The notes under the pieces: model-generated | What the model was told of the DNA's origin: nothing | The model's database searches: none | Seen by the model: only the letters and a program-made list of their open reading frames with translations | Shown here: positions 4,277 through 12,719 of the stretch, in pieces | Layout of the letters: each line of letters opens with the position of its first letter | Numbering within the stretch: the first letter of the stretch is position 1 | Made by a program: the position numbers and the translations under genes | Assembly: GCA_016932965.1 (NCBI GenBank) | Contig: JAFGBW010000072.1 | Location: 1 to 12,736 of the forward strand | Source: Candidatus Auribacterota bacterium | Lineage (GTDB): Bacteria; Auribacterota; JAFGBW01 | DNA length: 12,736 nt | Direction: 5' to 3'

Positions 4277-4672
4277 ATGATCAGCAGAAGCGATATTAAA
4301 ATAATGGTTCTTGATGACGAGCCTGCCTTGCTGAAATTGATCCAATCTTACCTGGAGGACGAGGGATTCCAGGTCTATCTCTTTTCCGATGCTTCTGATT
4401 GTCTGGAGAAAGTCAAAAAAATCTGCCCTCACCTCATTATCCTGGATCTGGTGATGCCCGCTTTAAGCGGTCTGGCTTTTTTAAAGAAGCTGAGGGAGGA
4501 AGATAAAGAACTGCCGGTGATCATTCTCTCCGCTTTCACGGGAGATTTAACCCAGGATGAAATGGAGGCCATCCGTCATTACCGGGTGAGGGATATCATC
4601 TCCAAAAGCCTGGACATAAAGGATTCCAGTTTTCGAATTCAAAAGGTGCTCCGGGATCATTATGATTTCTGA
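4277..4672 (+). CDS. Stand-alone CheY-like receiver (response regulator) protein
   Basis: A 131-residue protein made of one receiver domain. The acidic pair is D13-D14, the phosphoacceptor D57 (L-I-I-L-D-L-V-M-P), the switch S85 (I-I-L-S-A) and the conserved lysine K110, followed by Ser instead of the usual Pro. All residues needed for phosphorylation are present. There is no output domain, so it should act by protein-protein contact or as a phosphorelay intermediate in the cytoplasm. ATG 4277 is the first start after an in-frame TGA; a possible Shine-Dalgarno (AGAGG) is rather far, 13 bases away. The polysaccharide permease gene starts 12 bp after its stop, so the two are probably cotranscribed. 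The minimal histidine kinase at 5571 is a plausible partner by proximity only. Confidence 0.9.
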   Translation: MISRSDIKIMVLDDEPALLKLIQSYLEDEGFQVYLFSDASDCLEKVKKICPHLIILDLVMPALSGLAFLKKLREEDKELPVIILSAFTGDLTQDEMEAIRHYRVRDIISKSLDIKDSSFRIQKVLRDHYDF

Positions 4673-4684
4673 TAAGGTCACTCC

Positions 4685-5452
4685 ATGTATTCACTGCTGA
4701 AATCCTTATACTTTTACCGGGAACTCTTATGGAATCTCGTGATCAGAAATTTAAAAATCCGGTATAAGAATTCAGCGCTGGGTTTTTTGTGGACGCTTTT
4801 GAATCCTCTTTTCCTCATTTTTATTTACTATTTTTTTATCCGTCTGATGCGTTTTCAGATGAATCTGGCCGAGCTTCTTTCCGGTGTCATCCCCTGGCAT
4901 TTTCTCTCCATGACGTTGGGCGACTCCGTTGAAACCATCTCCGGAAATTCAACCCTTGTCACCAAAATCCGGTTTCCCAGAATCATCCTGCCCCTGTCGA
5001 CTGTGTTGGCCAACCTCGTCAACTATCTCCTTTCTCTGGCGGTTCTCATCCTTTGTCTGCCCCTTCTTCAGGGCGGCATATCTGTTTACCTGTTTTGGCT
5101 GTTACCGCTCTTACCGCTGCAATTCATTTTTGTCCTGGGACTTTCTTTGATCGTATCAACCTGCAATGTGTATTTCAAAGATACAGGACATCTGTTGAGC
5201 GTGGCCATGATGGCATGGTTTTTTTTGACTCCCATTATTTATCCCCTGACCCAGATTCCCGTTGCTTTCAGGGATTTGGCTTTCTTAAATCCCATGACCA
5301 GCCTGGTTTGCCTGTACCGGCTCGCGTTTCTTCAGGTCCCCCTGCATTTCAATGTATGGATCCTTTCGAGCGGGATCATTCTTTTTTTAGTGTTTTTTCT
5401 GGGGTACAGACTGTTTTCCCATTTTGAACCCATTTTTGCCGATGAGCTGTGA
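4685..5452 (+). CDS. ABC-2 type polysaccharide/O-antigen export permease (Wzm/KpsM-like)
   Basis: A 255-residue inner-membrane protein of typical family length with about six membrane segments. Hallmarks are R21-N-L-K-I-R-Y near the N-terminus, then G33-F-L-W-T-L-L-N-P entering TM1. Further on are P70-W-H-F-L-S, K94-I-R-F-P-R-I-I-L-P, V162-Y-F-K-D and L201-N-P-M, and the tail ends F245...FADEL. This family forms the channel of ABC exporters for O-antigen, capsule or teichoic acid chains, together with a Wzt/KpsT/TagH ATPase. That ATPase gene normally follows directly, but here the next gene is a histidine kinase, so the partner must lie elsewhere. AAGG seven bases upstream supports the ATG. 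The substrate cannot be told from the sequence. Confidence 0.92.
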   Translation: MYSLLKSLYFYRELLWNLVIRNLKIRYKNSALGFLWTLLNPLFLIFIYYFFIRLMRFQMNLAELLSGVIPWHFLSMTLGDSVETISGNSTLVTKIRFPRIILPLSTVLANLVNYLLSLAVLILCLPLLQGGISVYLFWLLPLLPLQFIFVLGLSLIVSTCNVYFKDTGHLLSVAMMAWFFLTPIIYPLTQIPVAFRDLAFLNPMTSLVCLYRLAFLQVPLHFNVWILSSGIILFLVFFLGYRLFSHFEPIFADEL

Positions 5453-5570: not shown

Positions 5571-6287
5571 ATGGAAAAGCCCAAAGACATTCGTCATCGT
5601 CAGGCCCAATTCCTTGGCCGGATCACCCATGATATCAAAAACACCCTGACGGCCGTTTTTTCCGCAGCCGAAACCATCAAAGTCTCCACCCATCTCTCCA
5701 ATGACGACAAAATACTCCTTTTGAACGCCATTCAGGATTCCTGTCATAAGACGGAATGGGACATCCAGAGATTAAGAAGATGGAAAATTTATCTGGAGCC
5801 TGTTTCAGAGCTTGAACTGACCAGGATGGATTTGAGACCCGTCATGACTGAATTGCTTCAGTCTTTCAGCAGACTGGCTGAAAGTGAAGATAAAAAACTG
5901 GAATACGTCGAAAAGACCAATAATAAACCGGCTTATATTGCCTGTGACCCAAGATATCTGAGTATCGCCATCGGGAGTCTGCTCGAAAATGCCATCCAGT
6001 TTTCCGCCAGAAATCAATTGATTCGTATGGCACTCATGAAAAGCCATACTGAGTATGTGATCGAAATTCAGGACCAGGGAAAAGGAATCCAGGAAAACGA
6101 TTTACCCCATGTTTTGGACGCTTATTTTTCCAAAGATTCCCGTGAAGGATATCTGCACCAGGAGTCCATCGGATTAGGACTCACCGTGGCCAAGCACATT
6201 GTGGACCTCCACGGCGGCATTCTGGATATCCGCTCCAAATTCAACCGCGGCACCGTCGTCTTCCTCCATTTCCCCTCAGTTACCTAG
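5571..6287 (+). CDS. Minimal soluble sensor histidine kinase (HisKA + HATPase_c)
   Basis: A 238-residue protein that starts almost directly with its DHp domain. The H-box is H20-D-I-K-N (phosphoacceptor H20), the N-box L138-E-N140-A-I-Q-F-S, the G1 box D168-Q-G-K-G172 and the G2 box G201-L-G-L. There is no transmembrane segment, PAS, GAF or HAMP domain, so it probably senses through a partner or acts as a relay kinase in the cytoplasm. Frames upstream close at a TAA at 5532 with no earlier start. AAGGAG is present but 13 bases from the ATG, longer than usual. It lies 118 bp after the permease gene; I saw no convincing promoter in that spacer. The stop overlaps a strong hairpin (6264-6298). 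The REC proteins of this window are candidate partners. Confidence 0.9.
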   Translation: MEKPKDIRHRQAQFLGRITHDIKNTLTAVFSAAETIKVSTHLSNDDKILLLNAIQDSCHKTEWDIQRLRRWKIYLEPVSELELTRMDLRPVMTELLQSFSRLAESEDKKLEYVEKTNNKPAYIACDPRYLSIAIGSLLENAIQFSARNQLIRMALMKSHTEYVIEIQDQGKGIQENDLPHVLDAYFSKDSREGYLHQESIGLGLTVAKHIVDLHGGILDIRSKFNRGTVVFLHFPSVT

Positions 6288-7541: not shown

Positions 7542-7627
7542 GTAAACCACCGCCACAGGATTTGGAATAGCAAAGTTTGACAATTCAGGAAATTTATAAA
7601 AAAAACCTTTCACCACGGAGGACACGG
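7542..7627. repeat. Dispersed repeat, copy 2 (with CCACGGAGG arm)
   Basis: This copy aligns with 3781-3866 in the same orientation and ends in the left arm of the foldback element at 7611-7762. It lies about 60 bp upstream of the tlyA start, so the tlyA promoter may lie in or beyond the repeat. I saw no convincing promoter in it. Confidence 0.6.
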
Positions 7628-7762
7628 AGAAAATTCAGGAAAAAATTTTAAGTTATGCATTTTAGTTATCAATTGAGATGATAAAATGACGTTATAACTC
7701 AAAAATTTAGAACTGAATGCACATAAGTCTTACCCACCGTGTTCTCCGCGTCCTCCGTGGTG
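7611..7762. repeat. Foldback (MITE-like) repeat with CACCACGGAGG termini
   Basis: The ends 7611-7631 and 7742-7762 are inverted repeats matching at 20 of 21 positions (CACCACGGAGGAC-CGGAGAA). The interior 7643-7709 is itself an imperfect palindrome: AAATTTTAAGTTAT...ATAACTCAAAAATTT, with ATTTTAGTTATC facing GATGATAAAAT. The whole 152-bp unit can thus fold into one long, interrupted stem. It codes for nothing. The rest of the 466-bp tlyA-xseB gap (7763-7947) has a weak hairpin (GGGCCT 7888-7893 with AGGCCC 7911-7916) and nothing else I recognise. Confidence 0.65.
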
Positions 7763-7947
7763 AAAAATAAAAATGTAAATATTTCACAGTTTATTTATTA
7801 AAATGAATCGTTTTGAGGGGTTTCATATTTTAAAGATAACGGCTCTGCCGGCAGTATATTTACTTTCGGTTCTCAAGTCATGATTACGGGCCTGTGTTAC
7901 GAGATTTGAAAGGCCCTGGTTCAGGTATCCATTTATTCATACAGGAC

Positions 7948-8328
7948 TTAGAACAGGTCCAGGTCAGGATCATTCGGGTCAGTCTCTTTTTCCTGTACGG
8001 ATTCCGGGTGGGCAATCCGTTTTTTTAAGTTTTTTGTCTGAGGAGATTTTTTCATGCCGGTCTTTTCGACAAAGGCATTCACCGTTTCGGATCCGTCCTG
8101 TTTTTCGTGTTCATCAAACTCAGCTTCCTTCAGATTGTTCTGGAAATCCTTTTCCATGATTTTGATGGATTTTTCAGCCGCAAGCAGTTTTTTTGTGCAC
8201 GCCTGGATGAGTTTCATTCCGTTCTCGTAATTTTTCAGGGAATCATCGAGGCTCAATGTCCCTTTTTCCATTGCTGCAACGATGGACTCGATTTCCTCCA
8301 TCATTTGTTCGAATGTGTTTTCCGTCAT
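7948..8328 (-). CDS. xseB: Exodeoxyribonuclease VII small subunit with C-terminal extension
   Basis: Residues 1-65 are a clear XseB: F6-E-Q-M-M-E-E-I-E-S-I-V, then L25-S-L-D-D-S-L-K-N-Y-E-N-G and the C-terminal helix A50-A-E-K-S-I. XseB binds XseA to form ExoVII, which degrades single-stranded DNA from both ends. Typical XseB proteins have about 70-85 residues; this one has 126. The extra part is charged and low in complexity, ending in an acidic D-P-N-D-P-D-L-D-L-F tail of unknown role. Its ATG overlaps the TGA of the preceding gene (ATGA), and GGGAG sits seven bases upstream, so it is the last gene of the 11853-7948 operon. xseA is not in the window. Confidence 0.9.
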   Translation of the reverse strand: MTENTFEQMMEEIESIVAAMEKGTLSLDDSLKNYENGMKLIQACTKKLLAAEKSIKIMEKDFQNNLKEAEFDEHEKQDGSETVNAFVEKTGMKKSPQTKNLKKRIAHPESVQEKETDPNDPDLDLF

Positions 8329-8906
8329 TGGATGTCTCCCTTATTTTTTAACCATTTCAGGCATTCCTGAATCTGATCGGATGAAAATGAAATCAGTCCT
8401 TTTCCGTCTTTATCCACAAAAAGAGCCAGGGGTTTTTTCAGCGCGGGATTGATTTTCAGGGAAATGGAAAAGGAGCCGTCCCAATCCGGAATAAGCTGAA
8501 GTCCGGGCGGCTCATCCTCCATCGCAGGGAAAAGTTTCTTCAATTGTTCCTTTCTCAAGAGGTTTTCGTTTTCGAATTCTTTTAAAAGCTCCCTTTTGAG
8601 CTTTTTCCTCATCATCGGATTGATGCCGGTTTTTTGAAGGACCAAAAGGATCTGGATTTTGGGGTTATCGTAAATCTGATCGTAAATTTCCTTTTTGAAT
8701 TTTTCAAAACGGGACGCGTGTTTTTTGGAAAAGAAAAGAAGCAGCCGGAGCCGTACGGGGGTGGAAGGGGGCTCAATTTGTTTTCCATACAGGTCCTGGA
8801 CATGGAAGATGACATGAGTTGGTTGCGTGGAAGACGACACGGTTTGGTTTGAAAAGCCCGTGTTTAAAGATAACAGGATACAGACAACAGCGGCGAACGG
8901 TCTCAT
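8325..8906 (-). CDS. Secreted thioredoxin-like fold protein lacking the CxxC motif (tentative)
   Basis: A 193-residue protein with an N-terminal hydrophobic stretch (about 4-16) that looks like a signal peptide, so a periplasmic location is likely. Residues 51-62 (V-R-L-R-L-L-L-F-F-S-K-K) resemble the first core strand of thioredoxin-like proteins, where an active-site W-C-x-x-C should follow; here the sequence is K-K-H-A-S. The later D-W-D-G-S-F-S...P163-L-A-L-F-V-D-K-D-G-K-G resembles the cis-Pro strand and the P-x-x-x-x-I-D-x-D-G signature of peroxiredoxin/TlpA-like proteins. The fold is inferred from these two stretches only. If right, it is redox-inactive and probably a binding protein. 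It starts 3 bp after the glycosyltransferase-like gene and overlaps xseB by four bases. Confidence 0.5.
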   Translation of the reverse strand: MRPFAAVVCILLSLNTGFSNQTVSSSTQPTHVIFHVQDLYGKQIEPPSTPVRLRLLLFFSKKHASRFEKFKKEIYDQIYDNPKIQILLVLQKTGINPMMRKKLKRELLKEFENENLLRKEQLKKLFPAMEDEPPGLQLIPDWDGSFSISLKINPALKKPLALFVDKDGKGLISFSSDQIQECLKWLKNKGDIQ

Positions 8907-8909
8907 ATA

Positions 8910-10280
8910 TCAGCCGGGAAACAGATGATGTTTCAGGTGATAGAAGCGTAATGCGTCCTCATGCAGTTTTTTCTCATGCTGGTCATGAATGTGCCAGTAC
9001 TGGCCTGATTCGCCGCCGGCCCAGCGGCAGCCTCTGGATTCATCCTGTAATGCTTTATGCTTGGTCACCTGGATGAGCTGCCGGATCTCAGCCGCCCAAT
9101 TCCGGGCCTTGGCGTAAAAAAGACAGTTTAAGATTTTTTCCTTCTCCAATTGATGACGGGATGATTTCATCTGCAGATAAGATTGGAGTATTGAATGTAG
9201 AAGCGCGGGCCAGGGTTCCGTCGGGGTTTCCTCATTTTTCTGATGGTGGCCCTTTGAGAAAAGCGATAATAAACTCTCCCTGATTCTGGCTTGAAAATGG
9301 GAATGATATTTGAGGAGCGAGACGGCCTCCCTTTCTTTTTCGCACTGGCAATGATGGTAGGTTCGCAGCGTCTCATCCAGGTCGGATGGACTATAGATAT
9401 GAAAAGGAATGGAAGAAGGAATGGGATTGTGGCCCGGAATCAGGGATGTTCCCTTGCGGATGAAATTTTTGTAAGCGGAAAGGAGTTGCAGGCCGGTCCG
9501 GATCAATTCCGGAATTTCTTTTCCGGAAAAGAAACCGATGCCGTCATGGTCTCCGAGGAAAAATTCATGAATGCGCAGCCCTGAAGAAAAAACAGAAAAG
9601 GTCAAAAAGAGATGGCAGGAACTCATGAAAGCAAAATCTTTCCATTTCAGTTTCAGCCAGTAATTGAGACAGCCGGCGGAAAACGCGAAATCCGGGGAAG
9701 CGGGATTCCGCAGCTGTCTGCCGAAAAGATAGCTCAGAGGCATCATCCAGAAGTTGGTCATGAATCCCTTGTAAAAAGGGATGGTGTAGGCGGCGATGTT
9801 TAAATCGGTTTTGTTTAAAATGCCGCTTTCCAGAAGAAGATTGAGTTTGAAAGCGGAAGGAAAGGAGAAATCCGTCTCAGACGGGTTGATCACCATGGAA
9901 TAAAGAAAAGGAATGGGTTTCATGATTTTAAAAATGATCTGTAAAAGGGAGCCGTACAAAGGGGCGGGTTTGGAAAAACAGATTTCAACAAAAAACATAT
10001 CGTGCTGGTCCCGGATGTCGCTTTGGCTTAAAAAATAGTCCCATAGGGCGGCCATTGGCGAGACCTTTGAAGCGGGGGGTGTGTCGCTTGCGCAGAAAAT
10101 CAGAAAAGAACGGCCGGAATTGTAGCGGGATTTCAGCTCAAAAATGGAACGGAATATCTGTCCTGCTTTCGGCTGTGTGCAGTCAGCAGGAATAACCAAG
10201 ATGATGTCCACCGGTTTCTGTAAAAAAGAAAGAGACGGGATTTTATTGGAAAGATTGATTCTGTAATAATTGGGTATCAA
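8910..10280 (-). CDS. Divergent GT-A glycosyltransferase-like protein (glucosyl/mannosylglycerate synthase-like), probably without DxD
   Basis: A 456-residue soluble protein. Several stretches follow the layout of GT2/GT81-type enzymes: V24-D-I-I-L-V-I-P (nucleotide-sugar strand), G110-S-L-L-Q-I-I-F, F169-Y-K-G-F-M-T-N-F (compare KYDGTITNN), L186-F-G-R-Q-L-R-N-P, D197-F-A-F-S (compare DFGFS), and a C-terminal L-F-Y-A-K (compare LYFARV). Where the family has its metal/NDP-sugar DxD (VVDAD), this protein reads S128-M-V-I-N-P-S. The GIDIW motif is also lost (S220-S-C-H-L-F). Catalysis by the standard mechanism is therefore doubtful. The start is TTG (10280) without a clear Shine-Dalgarno; GTG at codon 24 is the alternative. 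It follows the PAS/DHp gene by 17 bp and precedes the thioredoxin-like gene by 3 bp. Confidence 0.6.
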   Translation of the reverse strand: MIPNYYRINLSNKIPSLSFLQKPVDIILVIPADCTQPKAGQIFRSIFELKSRYNSGRSFLIFCASDTPPASKVSPMAALWDYFLSQSDIRDQHDMFFVEICFSKPAPLYGSLLQIIFKIMKPIPFLYSMVINPSETDFSFPSAFKLNLLLESGILNKTDLNIAAYTIPFYKGFMTNFWMMPLSYLFGRQLRNPASPDFAFSAGCLNYWLKLKWKDFAFMSSCHLFLTFSVFSSGLRIHEFFLGDHDGIGFFSGKEIPELIRTGLQLLSAYKNFIRKGTSLIPGHNPIPSSIPFHIYSPSDLDETLRTYHHCQCEKEREAVSLLKYHSHFQARIRESLLSLFSKGHHQKNEETPTEPWPALLHSILQSYLQMKSSRHQLEKEKILNCLFYAKARNWAAEIRQLIQVTKHKALQDESRGCRWAGGESGQYWHIHDQHEKKLHEDALRFYHLKHHLFPG

Positions 10281-10297: not shown

Positions 10298-11086
10298 TTA
10301 AGTTTCAGATAGTTCGATGTATTTCATTTTTTTGATGTCTTTGACTTCTGCGATATGGCTGATGACGCGCATGATGTTTTCAACGGATTCCTCGATCAGT
10401 TTCAGCCGTTTGACCACGGCCGAATTCAGCTTTTTTTCGGAATCGTTGATTTTTTGAATATCATCCAGAATCCTTGTGAGCGGTTTATTGATCTTGTCCT
10501 GGAAAACCTCCACCATCTCAATGATCGTTTTTTGCCGTTCCACCTTGATGTTTTCTTCCTGATAATGAAGAAGGTCTTCGTATTGTTTCTTGACATTTTC
10601 GTAAGAACTGACAATTTTCCGGTTGATCTCCACCATTTTTTTCGCCTGTTCGGTCAATTCTTTATTTTGATTTTTGAGGTTTTTAATGAGTGAAACATGT
10701 TCGTTGGAAGTGTAGATGGTCGCCGCATACAGTTCAGCCTTATGAGCTGCCGGGGAAAGCCGGCAGACCGTCACACGATAGAGTTGGACTTCTTTTGAAT
10801 GATTCATCAAAGGAATATCAAAGGCGCAATGTTCCTTTTTCTGGTGAAGGATCAATTTGCTTTTCCATTCTTTTTGTTCAGAACCAGGGGTGAGGGAATA
10901 GAAACTTTTCTTCTTGATTTCCGAAGGCGATAACTTGAAGAATTCCGACGCTTTCGGATTGGCGGCGATGATTCTCAGGGAAGCGTTCAATACCAGTATG
11001 GGAAAATCATTCAAGTGGCAGTATGAAGAAAAATATTTCTCATGTTTCAATATGTTCTCCAGGTAAGGGTTCGTTTTTGATGTCAT
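10298..11086 (-). CDS. PAS/coiled-coil/DHp-like signalling protein lacking phosphoacceptor His and ATPase domain
   Basis: A 262-residue cytoplasmic protein. Residues about 20-128 form a PAS domain (F28-P-I-L-V-L-N...A41-A-N-P-K-A-S-E-F-F), about 130-185 a coiled coil, and about 183-258 a helical hairpin like the kinase DHp domain. On the usual M-V-x-x-x-N-H-E-I-N-N-P-L text it reads M191-V-E-V-F-Q-D-K-I-N-K-P-L, which puts Asp197 where the phosphorylated His should be. No HATPase domain follows, and the gene ends at residue 262. It cannot act as an ordinary histidine kinase; a dimeric sensor-scaffold that binds receiver domains is plausible. The start lies 2 bp after the stop of the tandem REC gene, with GGAGA about 11 bases upstream, so the two are tightly coupled and may be partners. 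Confidence 0.75.
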   Translation of the reverse strand: MTSKTNPYLENILKHEKYFSSYCHLNDFPILVLNASLRIIAANPKASEFFKLSPSEIKKKSFYSLTPGSEQKEWKSKLILHQKKEHCAFDIPLMNHSKEVQLYRVTVCRLSPAAHKAELYAATIYTSNEHVSLIKNLKNQNKELTEQAKKMVEINRKIVSSYENVKKQYEDLLHYQEENIKVERQKTIIEMVEVFQDKINKPLTRILDDIQKINDSEKKLNSAVVKRLKLIEESVENIMRVISHIAEVKDIKKMKYIELSET

Positions 11087-11088
11087 GT

Positions 11089-11853
11089 TCAGCTGTCTCC
11101 ATCTGTTAAACGATTAATAGCCTGTACGAGGCTTTTTTGCGTGAAAGGTTTGGTGAGGTAACCGCTCACTCCGGCAGCAAAAGCCTCCTGAATCCTTTCC
11201 GAACTGTTTTCTTTTGTCACCATGATAATGGGAATTTGTCTGAATTTATTTTTTTGTTTGGCCTTTTTAACGAAATCCATGCCGTTCATCAACGGCATAT
11301 TGAAATCAACCAAAACTAAATCCGGCATTTCCTTTTCAAGAAGTGCCAGCGCCGATTCCCCGTCCGTGGCTTCCAGTACGGACACGGATGAATCGATCTG
11401 CTTTAAAAAATTGGCTAAAATATGGCGAATGGTGACCGCATCGTCGACCACTAAAACTTTGTTCAGCCTGTTCGCCGTTTTTATGTTATGGTTCTTTTTA
11501 ATCAGGTTTTCTATTTTATGGATCAGGTCGTCAAATTCAAAGGGTTTGATCAGGTAATCTTCAGCTCCGACTTTCGCCGCGCTATAGCGGTCTCTCATCG
11601 TATTTTTTTCGCTCACCATCAGGATCGGCCGGTCACAGGTGAGCGGGTCCTCTTTTAAACGCGAGCAGACCTCAAATCCGTCTATGTCCGGCAGCATGAT
11701 GTCCAATATGATGATATCCGGATCTTCCTCTCGGGAGAGCCGCATCCCTTCATGGGCCGTTTTGCCCGAACAAACATGGTACCCTTTTGATTCAAGACGA
11801 GTTTTGATGATAAAAACAAATTGCTCGTCATCATCTATTAACACTATATTCAT
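11089..11853 (-). CDS. Tandem receiver (REC-REC) response regulator
   Basis: A 254-residue protein of two receiver domains joined by a short linker (about 120-131). REC1 has D7-D8-D9, phosphoacceptor D51, S81 and K103 (K-P-F). REC2 has D137-D138, phosphoacceptor D183, T213 and K235 (K-P-F), and its start (V-L-V-V-D-D-A-V-T-I-R) is CheY-like. Both domains look able to be phosphorylated. There is no output domain, so signalling should go through protein contact or phosphotransfer. It is the first gene of the five-gene operon ending with xseB and is preceded by a good sigma70-type promoter. The ATG has no strong Shine-Dalgarno. The PAS/DHp-like protein encoded next is the obvious candidate partner. 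Confidence 0.92.
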   Translation of the reverse strand: MNIVLIDDDEQFVFIIKTRLESKGYHVCSGKTAHEGMRLSREEDPDIIILDIMLPDIDGFEVCSRLKEDPLTCDRPILMVSEKNTMRDRYSAAKVGAEDYLIKPFEFDDLIHKIENLIKKNHNIKTANRLNKVLVVDDAVTIRHILANFLKQIDSSVSVLEATDGESALALLEKEMPDLVLVDFNMPLMNGMDFVKKAKQKNKFRQIPIIMVTKENSSERIQEAFAAGVSGYLTKPFTQKSLVQAINRLTDGDS

Positions 11854-11948: not shown

Positions 11949-12719
11949 TTATCCTTCCAGTTTTTTGATGGCCTTTTCGTAATATTCATTCCCTTCGGGG
12001 CCAAGGTCGATGATTTTTTTCCACAGGATTTTTGCCTTGGCCGGATTTTCCTTTTCTACAATCAGGGAGGCCGGATAACAGGTTTGGAGAATTTTCAGGC
12101 GTTTCTGTTTTGATTCGGATAAGGCGATCTTGATTTTCACGGAATCCGGGTCTGATGCATAGGCTTTTTTGAAATACTCATAGGCGGCGGCGTATTTCCA
12201 TTGAGCCATGGCTTCAATCCCGCTGACGTAATTGAGTTCAGCGCGCAAATTTTTTCCTGTGGTGAGATCTTTCATCTTTTTATAGGCAAATTGGTTGTAA
12301 TAATTGTCAGGGTTCGGTACCTTCTCAAGGATTTTTTTCAATGCTTCTATCACAGCCTGGGGATCTTTCCGGGTTTCCGCCTCGTTCATGGCCTTGATAA
12401 GCTGTTCCATTTCCTCGATCAGGCTCTTTAAATCCAGGGCTTTTTTATACACGGGAATCATCTTCAGTATGGAATAAAGCATTTCTTTTGTTTTATCCAG
12501 ATCCCCGGCCTTGAAATGATCATTCGCCATGGAATACGAGACCTCCACGGCAGGGATCTGGTCTATCTTTTCAAGCAGATCCTTTATTTCTTCATATTTT
12601 TCAAAGTCCGCCTCGATCATCTGCAGCGTTCCCCTGGCTTTGTTGAATTCATTCGCTTCGTAATAACGCAGGCCTTTTTGATAAAGTTCATTCACTTCAG
12701 TATATTTTTTTGCCTTCAT
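11949..12719 (-). CDS. TPR-like helical repeat protein, possibly 5' truncated
   Basis: At least 256 residues, almost wholly alpha-helical and rich in Lys and Glu. TPR-like units begin at about residues 9 (N-E-L-Y-Q-K-G-L-R-Y-Y-E-A-N-E-F-N-K-A), 62 (Y-S-M-A-N-D-H-F-K-A-G-D-L-D-K) and 172 (A-Q-W-K-Y-A-A-A-Y-E-Y-F-K-K-A-Y). A further helical pair spans about 218-256. There is no signal peptide or membrane segment from this start. AAGGG eight bases before the ATG supports it, but the frame stays open to the window edge, so a longer protein cannot be excluded. TPR proteins act as scaffolds; no partner is evident. The REC-REC operon starts 95 bp downstream on the same strand. Confidence 0.7.
   Translation of the reverse strand: MKAKKYTEVNELYQKGLRYYEANEFNKARGTLQMIEADFEKYEEIKDLLEKIDQIPAVEVSYSMANDHFKAGDLDKTKEMLYSILKMIPVYKKALDLKSLIEEMEQLIKAMNEAETRKDPQAVIEALKKILEKVPNPDNYYNQFAYKKMKDLTTGKNLRAELNYVSGIEAMAQWKYAAAYEYFKKAYASDPDSVKIKIALSESKQKRLKILQTCYPASLIVEKENPAKAKILWKKIIDLGPEGNEYYEKAIKKLEG

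Follow-up and report, generated by a model that had tools for sequence, protein, structure and literature searches.

The analyzed window, i.e., the whole stretch of 12,736 nucleotides, contains a run of minus-strand genes headed by a gene for a TPR protein (11949–12719; family search). It is followed by a gene for a 254-aa protein with two receiver (REC) domains (REC-REC, 11089–11853), identified by family search and by the same gene order in a relative from the same taxonomic order, and by a gene for a 262-aa protein with a PAS domain and a coiled coil, or helical hairpin (10298–11086), which has an orthologue in that relative. The fourth gene, the target of this analysis, is the intact gene noted at 8910–10280 in a preliminary description of the window. 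It is a 456-aa ORF on the minus strand with a TTG start at 10280 and the stop at 8910, assigned as a GT78/MGS-like pseudo-glycosyltransferase (MGS, mannosylglycerate synthase) on the basis of the ORF list, homologue alignment, profile, and structural model. Downstream lie a gene for a 193-aa protein whose N-terminus is hydrophobic and signal-like (8325–8906) and xseB, encoding the exonuclease VII small subunit (7948–8328); these two genes overlap, the first nucleotides of xseB coinciding with the last of its neighbour. Between the PAS stop codon and the start of the target there are 17 nt, and between the stop of the target and the 193-aa gene, 3 nt; given this spacing, the target is probably cotranscribed with its operon neighbours. 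No promoter or terminator signals above chance are seen in the operon.

Two of the neighbouring products show features of their own. By eye, the C-terminal helical hairpin of the PAS protein (10298–11086) resembles a histidine-kinase dimerisation domain, with KINKPL in place of the expected HEINNPL; the hairpin lacks the His and the protein lacks an ATPase domain, and the same is observed in the orthologue from the order relative. The 193-aa exported protein (8325–8906) belongs to no family, and a search of 43 genomes of the phylum detected no relative; at a guess, made by eye, it could be thioredoxin-like, lacking the CxxC motif.

Single-protein searches of Pfam, NCBIfam, and PDB sequences yield no match for the target protein. 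In tblastn searches against whole genomes, its matches are ORFs about 400 aa long, with E-values down to 5e-8 (the best one, in one genome), and these ORFs form a family with weak scores to the Pfam MGS_GT and NCBIfam GpgS models. Scanning bacterial and archaeal genome contigs reveals 80 further homologue loci in many phyla. We aligned 71 homologue proteins with the target protein; the profile constructed from these 71 proteins without the target matches the GpgS family and scores 47 bits with residues 150–411 of the target. As judged by this score and the best tblastn E-value, the similarity to the MGS-like family is far beyond chance. The Pfam MGS_GT model alone finds no match in the target's genome, and the curated NCBIfam GpgS model does not match the target protein, its only matches, elsewhere in the genome, being below the cut-off. 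The closest sequence relatives are the members of this unnamed MGS-like family (L011–L090), present in numerous MAGs of bacteria and archaea; they can be aligned along the entire length and have 15–19% identity to the target. Three stretches singled out as family-specific in the preliminary description, FYKGFMTN (residues 169–176), LFGRQLRNP (185–193), and DFAFS (197–201), indeed align with the YDGTITN, LxGxxxRQP, and DFAFS blocks of the 71 homologues. The target branch of the tree has a length of 10 changes per site and is too long to be placed. The homology of the target to GT78 MGS-like glycosyltransferases is remote and extends over its full length.

The AlphaFold2 model of the target, built on the homologue alignment, from which MGS itself is absent, has pLDDT 82 and pTM 0.86. 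The target sequence folded alone gives a poor model (pLDDT 40), hence the fold is a homology-supported prediction resting on the homologue alignment. The best Foldseek matches among solved structures are all MGS of Rhodothermus marinus (GT78; PDB 2bo4, 2y4j-m), with E-value 6e-10. VIA-align superposes model residues 26–453 on this enzyme with Z 28.1 (358 residues, 3.5 Å, about 10% identity), and the match takes in the C-terminal helical domain as well as the GT-A domain, so that the whole architecture is common to the two proteins. GpgS and other GT-A enzymes come next, with Z about 16 over about 225 residues; the likeness to the mycobacterial GpgS (GT81) is mainly in the GT-A domain, and this match is much shorter than that with MGS. 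The structural comparison agrees with the GT-A fold proposed earlier. Assignment to the glucosyl/mannosylglycerate synthase type holds as descent from the MGS/GpgS class, but the closest solved structure over the full length is that of the GT78 enzyme MGS rather than a GT81 one.

In GpgS and MGS, a network on the donor sugar is made up of the first Asp of the DxD motif, a Lys, and a Glu or Asp; the metal is held by the second Asp of DxD together with a His, the acceptor carboxylate by a Thr, and the ribose by a Glu (PMC2581804). We checked the assignment of these sites in five alignments (the tool's own and one from each of four MAFFT modes), which all agree on E135-T136-D137, H223, H245, and T175. 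The position of DxD is occupied by E-T-D (residues 135–137, 9870–9878), preceded by the model strand 125–130; hence, the first Asp is replaced by Glu, and the metal-binding second Asp is kept. The preliminary description, which considered DxD gone, took N-P-S (N132-P133-S134) as the equivalent of the motif, a reading that resulted from extending the preceding strand without gaps; an insertion of two or three residues separates the strand from E-T-D, and with such local insertions the exact geometry is uncertain.

The remaining two members of the donor-sugar network are replaced. At the position of the invariant GKG the target has LYG (residues 108–110, 9951–9959), the network Lys corresponding to Tyr109 in four of the five alignments and to Q92 in one. 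At the position of GID it has SCH (residues 221–223, 9612–9620), with His223 at the site of the network Asp or Glu (Asp192 in MGS, Glu232 in GpgS); the GIDIW block, correctly reported as lost, reads S221-C222-H223-L224-F225, both G and D being absent. The Asp-Lys-Asp/Glu network is thus replaced by E135, Y109, and H223: Lys76, Asp100, and Asp192 of MGS correspond to Tyr, Glu, and His, and the network Asp134-Lys114-Glu232 of GpgS is not conserved. The position of the nucleotide loop DxxSxDxT is ASDTPPAS (residues 64–71, 10068–10091), with the four invariant residues changed to A64, T67, P69, and S71; the ribose-Glu region PSxNE reads PADCT; and the donor-sugar loop RQPIGG is represented by RNPASP (residues 191–196, 9693–9710), where R and P are kept while Q, I, and both G are lost. 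Relative to MGS, both the nucleotide loop and the PLGGE loop are lost. On the other hand, the target has equivalents of the acceptor-binding Thr (T175, 9756–9758; Thr187 in GpgS, Thr139 in MGS), the metal Asp, and the invariant metal-binding His (H245, 9546–9548; His217 in MGS, His258 in GpgS), although the Lys preceding this His is deleted.

Overall, 81 columns are at least 85% conserved among the homologues, and the target keeps 26 of them. Among the near-invariant polar columns (at least 97%), it keeps 6 of 20, whereas each of the 71 homologues, the most divergent included, keeps at least 18, and the catalytic columns are nearly intact in 71/71 members. This is a stronger loss of catalytic motifs than was evident from the preliminary description. 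The donor site looks unfit to bind a nucleotide sugar as GpgS and MGS do, and canonical catalysis has very likely been lost. Since E-T-D, not N-P-S, occupies the DxD position, the Asp and His that bind the metal may still be present.

The preliminary description had suggested looking for orthologues with the same substitutions. No protein sharing the motif loss was found among 98 relatives, in 44 genomes of the phylum, or in viral contigs; the scan of genome contigs gave 80 active-type homologues and none with the loss, by a one-stretch pattern that could miss degenerate relatives. Elsewhere in the phylum (44 genomes), full-length family members are restricted to one other family (f4), three of them being aligned and having intact motifs of the active type; the remaining genomes yield only short GT2-type matches. 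A PAS-gene orthologue (30% identity) was found in a single order relative; it adjoins the REC-REC gene there, and no glycosyltransferase gene follows the pair. Hence, the target is not an obligate part of this module, and its gene was either inserted in the genome of the window or lost in the relative.

We suggest that the target is probably a pseudo-glycosyltransferase that originated from an active retaining GT78 enzyme and is now a non-catalytic member of a signalling operon. The ancestor would have been MGS-like, and its GT-A fold and C-terminal helical domain would have been kept, while sugar transfer would have been lost with the replacement of the donor-sugar network, nucleotide loop, ribose-binding Glu, and PIGG loop. 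The protein might then serve as a binding or adaptor subunit of the upstream REC-REC and PAS module, either by holding a small carboxylate ligand or a metal in the residual pocket (D137, H245, T175) or by offering its helical domain as an assembly surface. The role of a signalling adaptor acting with the REC-REC and PAS proteins is proposed tentatively; the preliminary description had likewise suggested that the protein may have a new role, such as ligand sensing or scaffolding. A more specific form, in which a GT78-type enzyme was turned into a non-catalytic ligand-binding or adaptor protein for the receiver/PAS module and its former acceptor and metal site came to act as a sensor pocket, is a rather doubtful one.

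A different partner is also conceivable, as the target could be a non-catalytic subunit that regulates some active glycosyltransferase in its own cell. In eukaryotes, inactive GT-A-like paralogues commonly end up this way, e.g., GMPPA with GMPPB (the complex 7d72 is among the structure matches); GMPPA and COSMC are catalytically dead and have regulatory or chaperone roles. However, these families are unrelated to the target and work with an active paralogue, whereas in the target's own genome (92.6% complete) no other full-length or active GT78/MGS-like member was found, only partial GT2 matches. This leaves as partner a generic GT2 enzyme encoded elsewhere in the genome, as there is none in the operon. 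We consider such a subunit improbable; the absence of an active family partner from the genome favours a stand-alone non-catalytic role.

Glu can stand in for Asp in some GT-A enzymes; with D137, H245, and T175 kept, some activity, or binding of a metal or nucleotide, is therefore possible. The target might even be an active, rewired glycosyltransferase with the site rebuilt on E135, D137, H245, and H223, using another donor or no metal. Retention of the three residues and the conservative change at E135 are consistent with such an enzyme, and there is a precedent in metal-independent GT-A enzymes (PMC3961637). However, substitutions affect the nucleotide loop, the Lys of GKG, the Asp/Glu of the network, the ribose-binding Glu, and the two Gly of PIGG alike, and 14 of the 20 near-invariant polar columns are lost, at least 18 being kept even by the most divergent aligned homologues; hence, we regard a rewired enzyme as unlikely.

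The occurrence in one genome only, the loss of many conserved residues, and the very long tree branch could also be expected of a decaying pseudogene that has not yet acquired its first stop codon. No orthologue having been found, constraint was judged from the state of one sequence. The codon-usage score of the target is similar to that of the neighbour genes, 0.26 in frame and about −0.4 out of frame. We also simulated drift of five homologue genes without selection until the same share of conserved columns was lost (1000 runs), assuming the family consensus as the ancestor; the motifs being common to MGS and GpgS, this is a reasonable assumption. The drifted genes acquired 13–15 stops on average and never fewer than four in 1000 runs, compared with zero in the target, and conserved hydrophobic columns are still hydrophobic in 31 of 37 cases in the target vs. 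about 62% under drift. Neutral decay is thus rejected by the lack of stops, the intact frame, and normal codon usage; together with the conserved hydrophobic core and the confident predicted fold, this makes a decaying pseudogene very unlikely. The earlier reading of the locus as a tight operon free of decay, in turn, agrees both with these results and with the gaps of 17 and 3 nt. The target is best seen as a pseudo-glycosyltransferase kept by selection, and it occurs in a single one of the genomes searched. Paired frameshifts that garble the motifs of an otherwise normal enzyme through a sequencing or assembly artefact, for which one might invoke the fragmented assembly (300 contigs), have a negligible probability as the cause of the motif loss and are rejected, since the other two frames of the strand contain neither family motifs nor profile signal and are interrupted by stops across the motif regions.

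The literature on bacterial GT-A-type pseudoenzymes yielded nothing direct, and well-supported pseudoenzymes of bacterial sugar transferases seem to be rare. VldE and ValL have the GT-B fold. They are also named pseudo-glycosyltransferases, but are still catalytic (C–N coupling) and unrelated to the loss in the target (PMC3441724; PMC12041759). With the donor site lost, the fold kept, and a signalling operon as the context, the pseudo-glycosyltransferase studied here would be a test case for the conversion of a small-molecule enzyme into a regulatory part. It is also a warning, as annotation based on the fold or a weak profile match alone would call this gene a glycosyltransferase.

Several further observations concern the window and the homologues. 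An ABC-2 type permease gene (4685–5452) is located between genes for a response regulator (4277–4672) and a histidine kinase (5571–6287), with no adjoining ATPase gene. One of the homologue loci (L009, 163–2367) has GpgS-like and MGS-like GT-A modules that appear fused in a single 734-aa ORF, seen in one genome; the homologues L019, L039, and L077 are also found in similarly long frames. Finally, a 24-nt motif (TTTCACCACGGAGGACACGGAGAA) is present at 7608–7631, 7742–7765, and 1573–1596, with an inverted pair in the tlyA–xseB gap. It has 55 copies genome-wide (at most three mismatches; zero in the control), including several inverted pairs about 110–150 nt apart, and is a dispersed repeat element.
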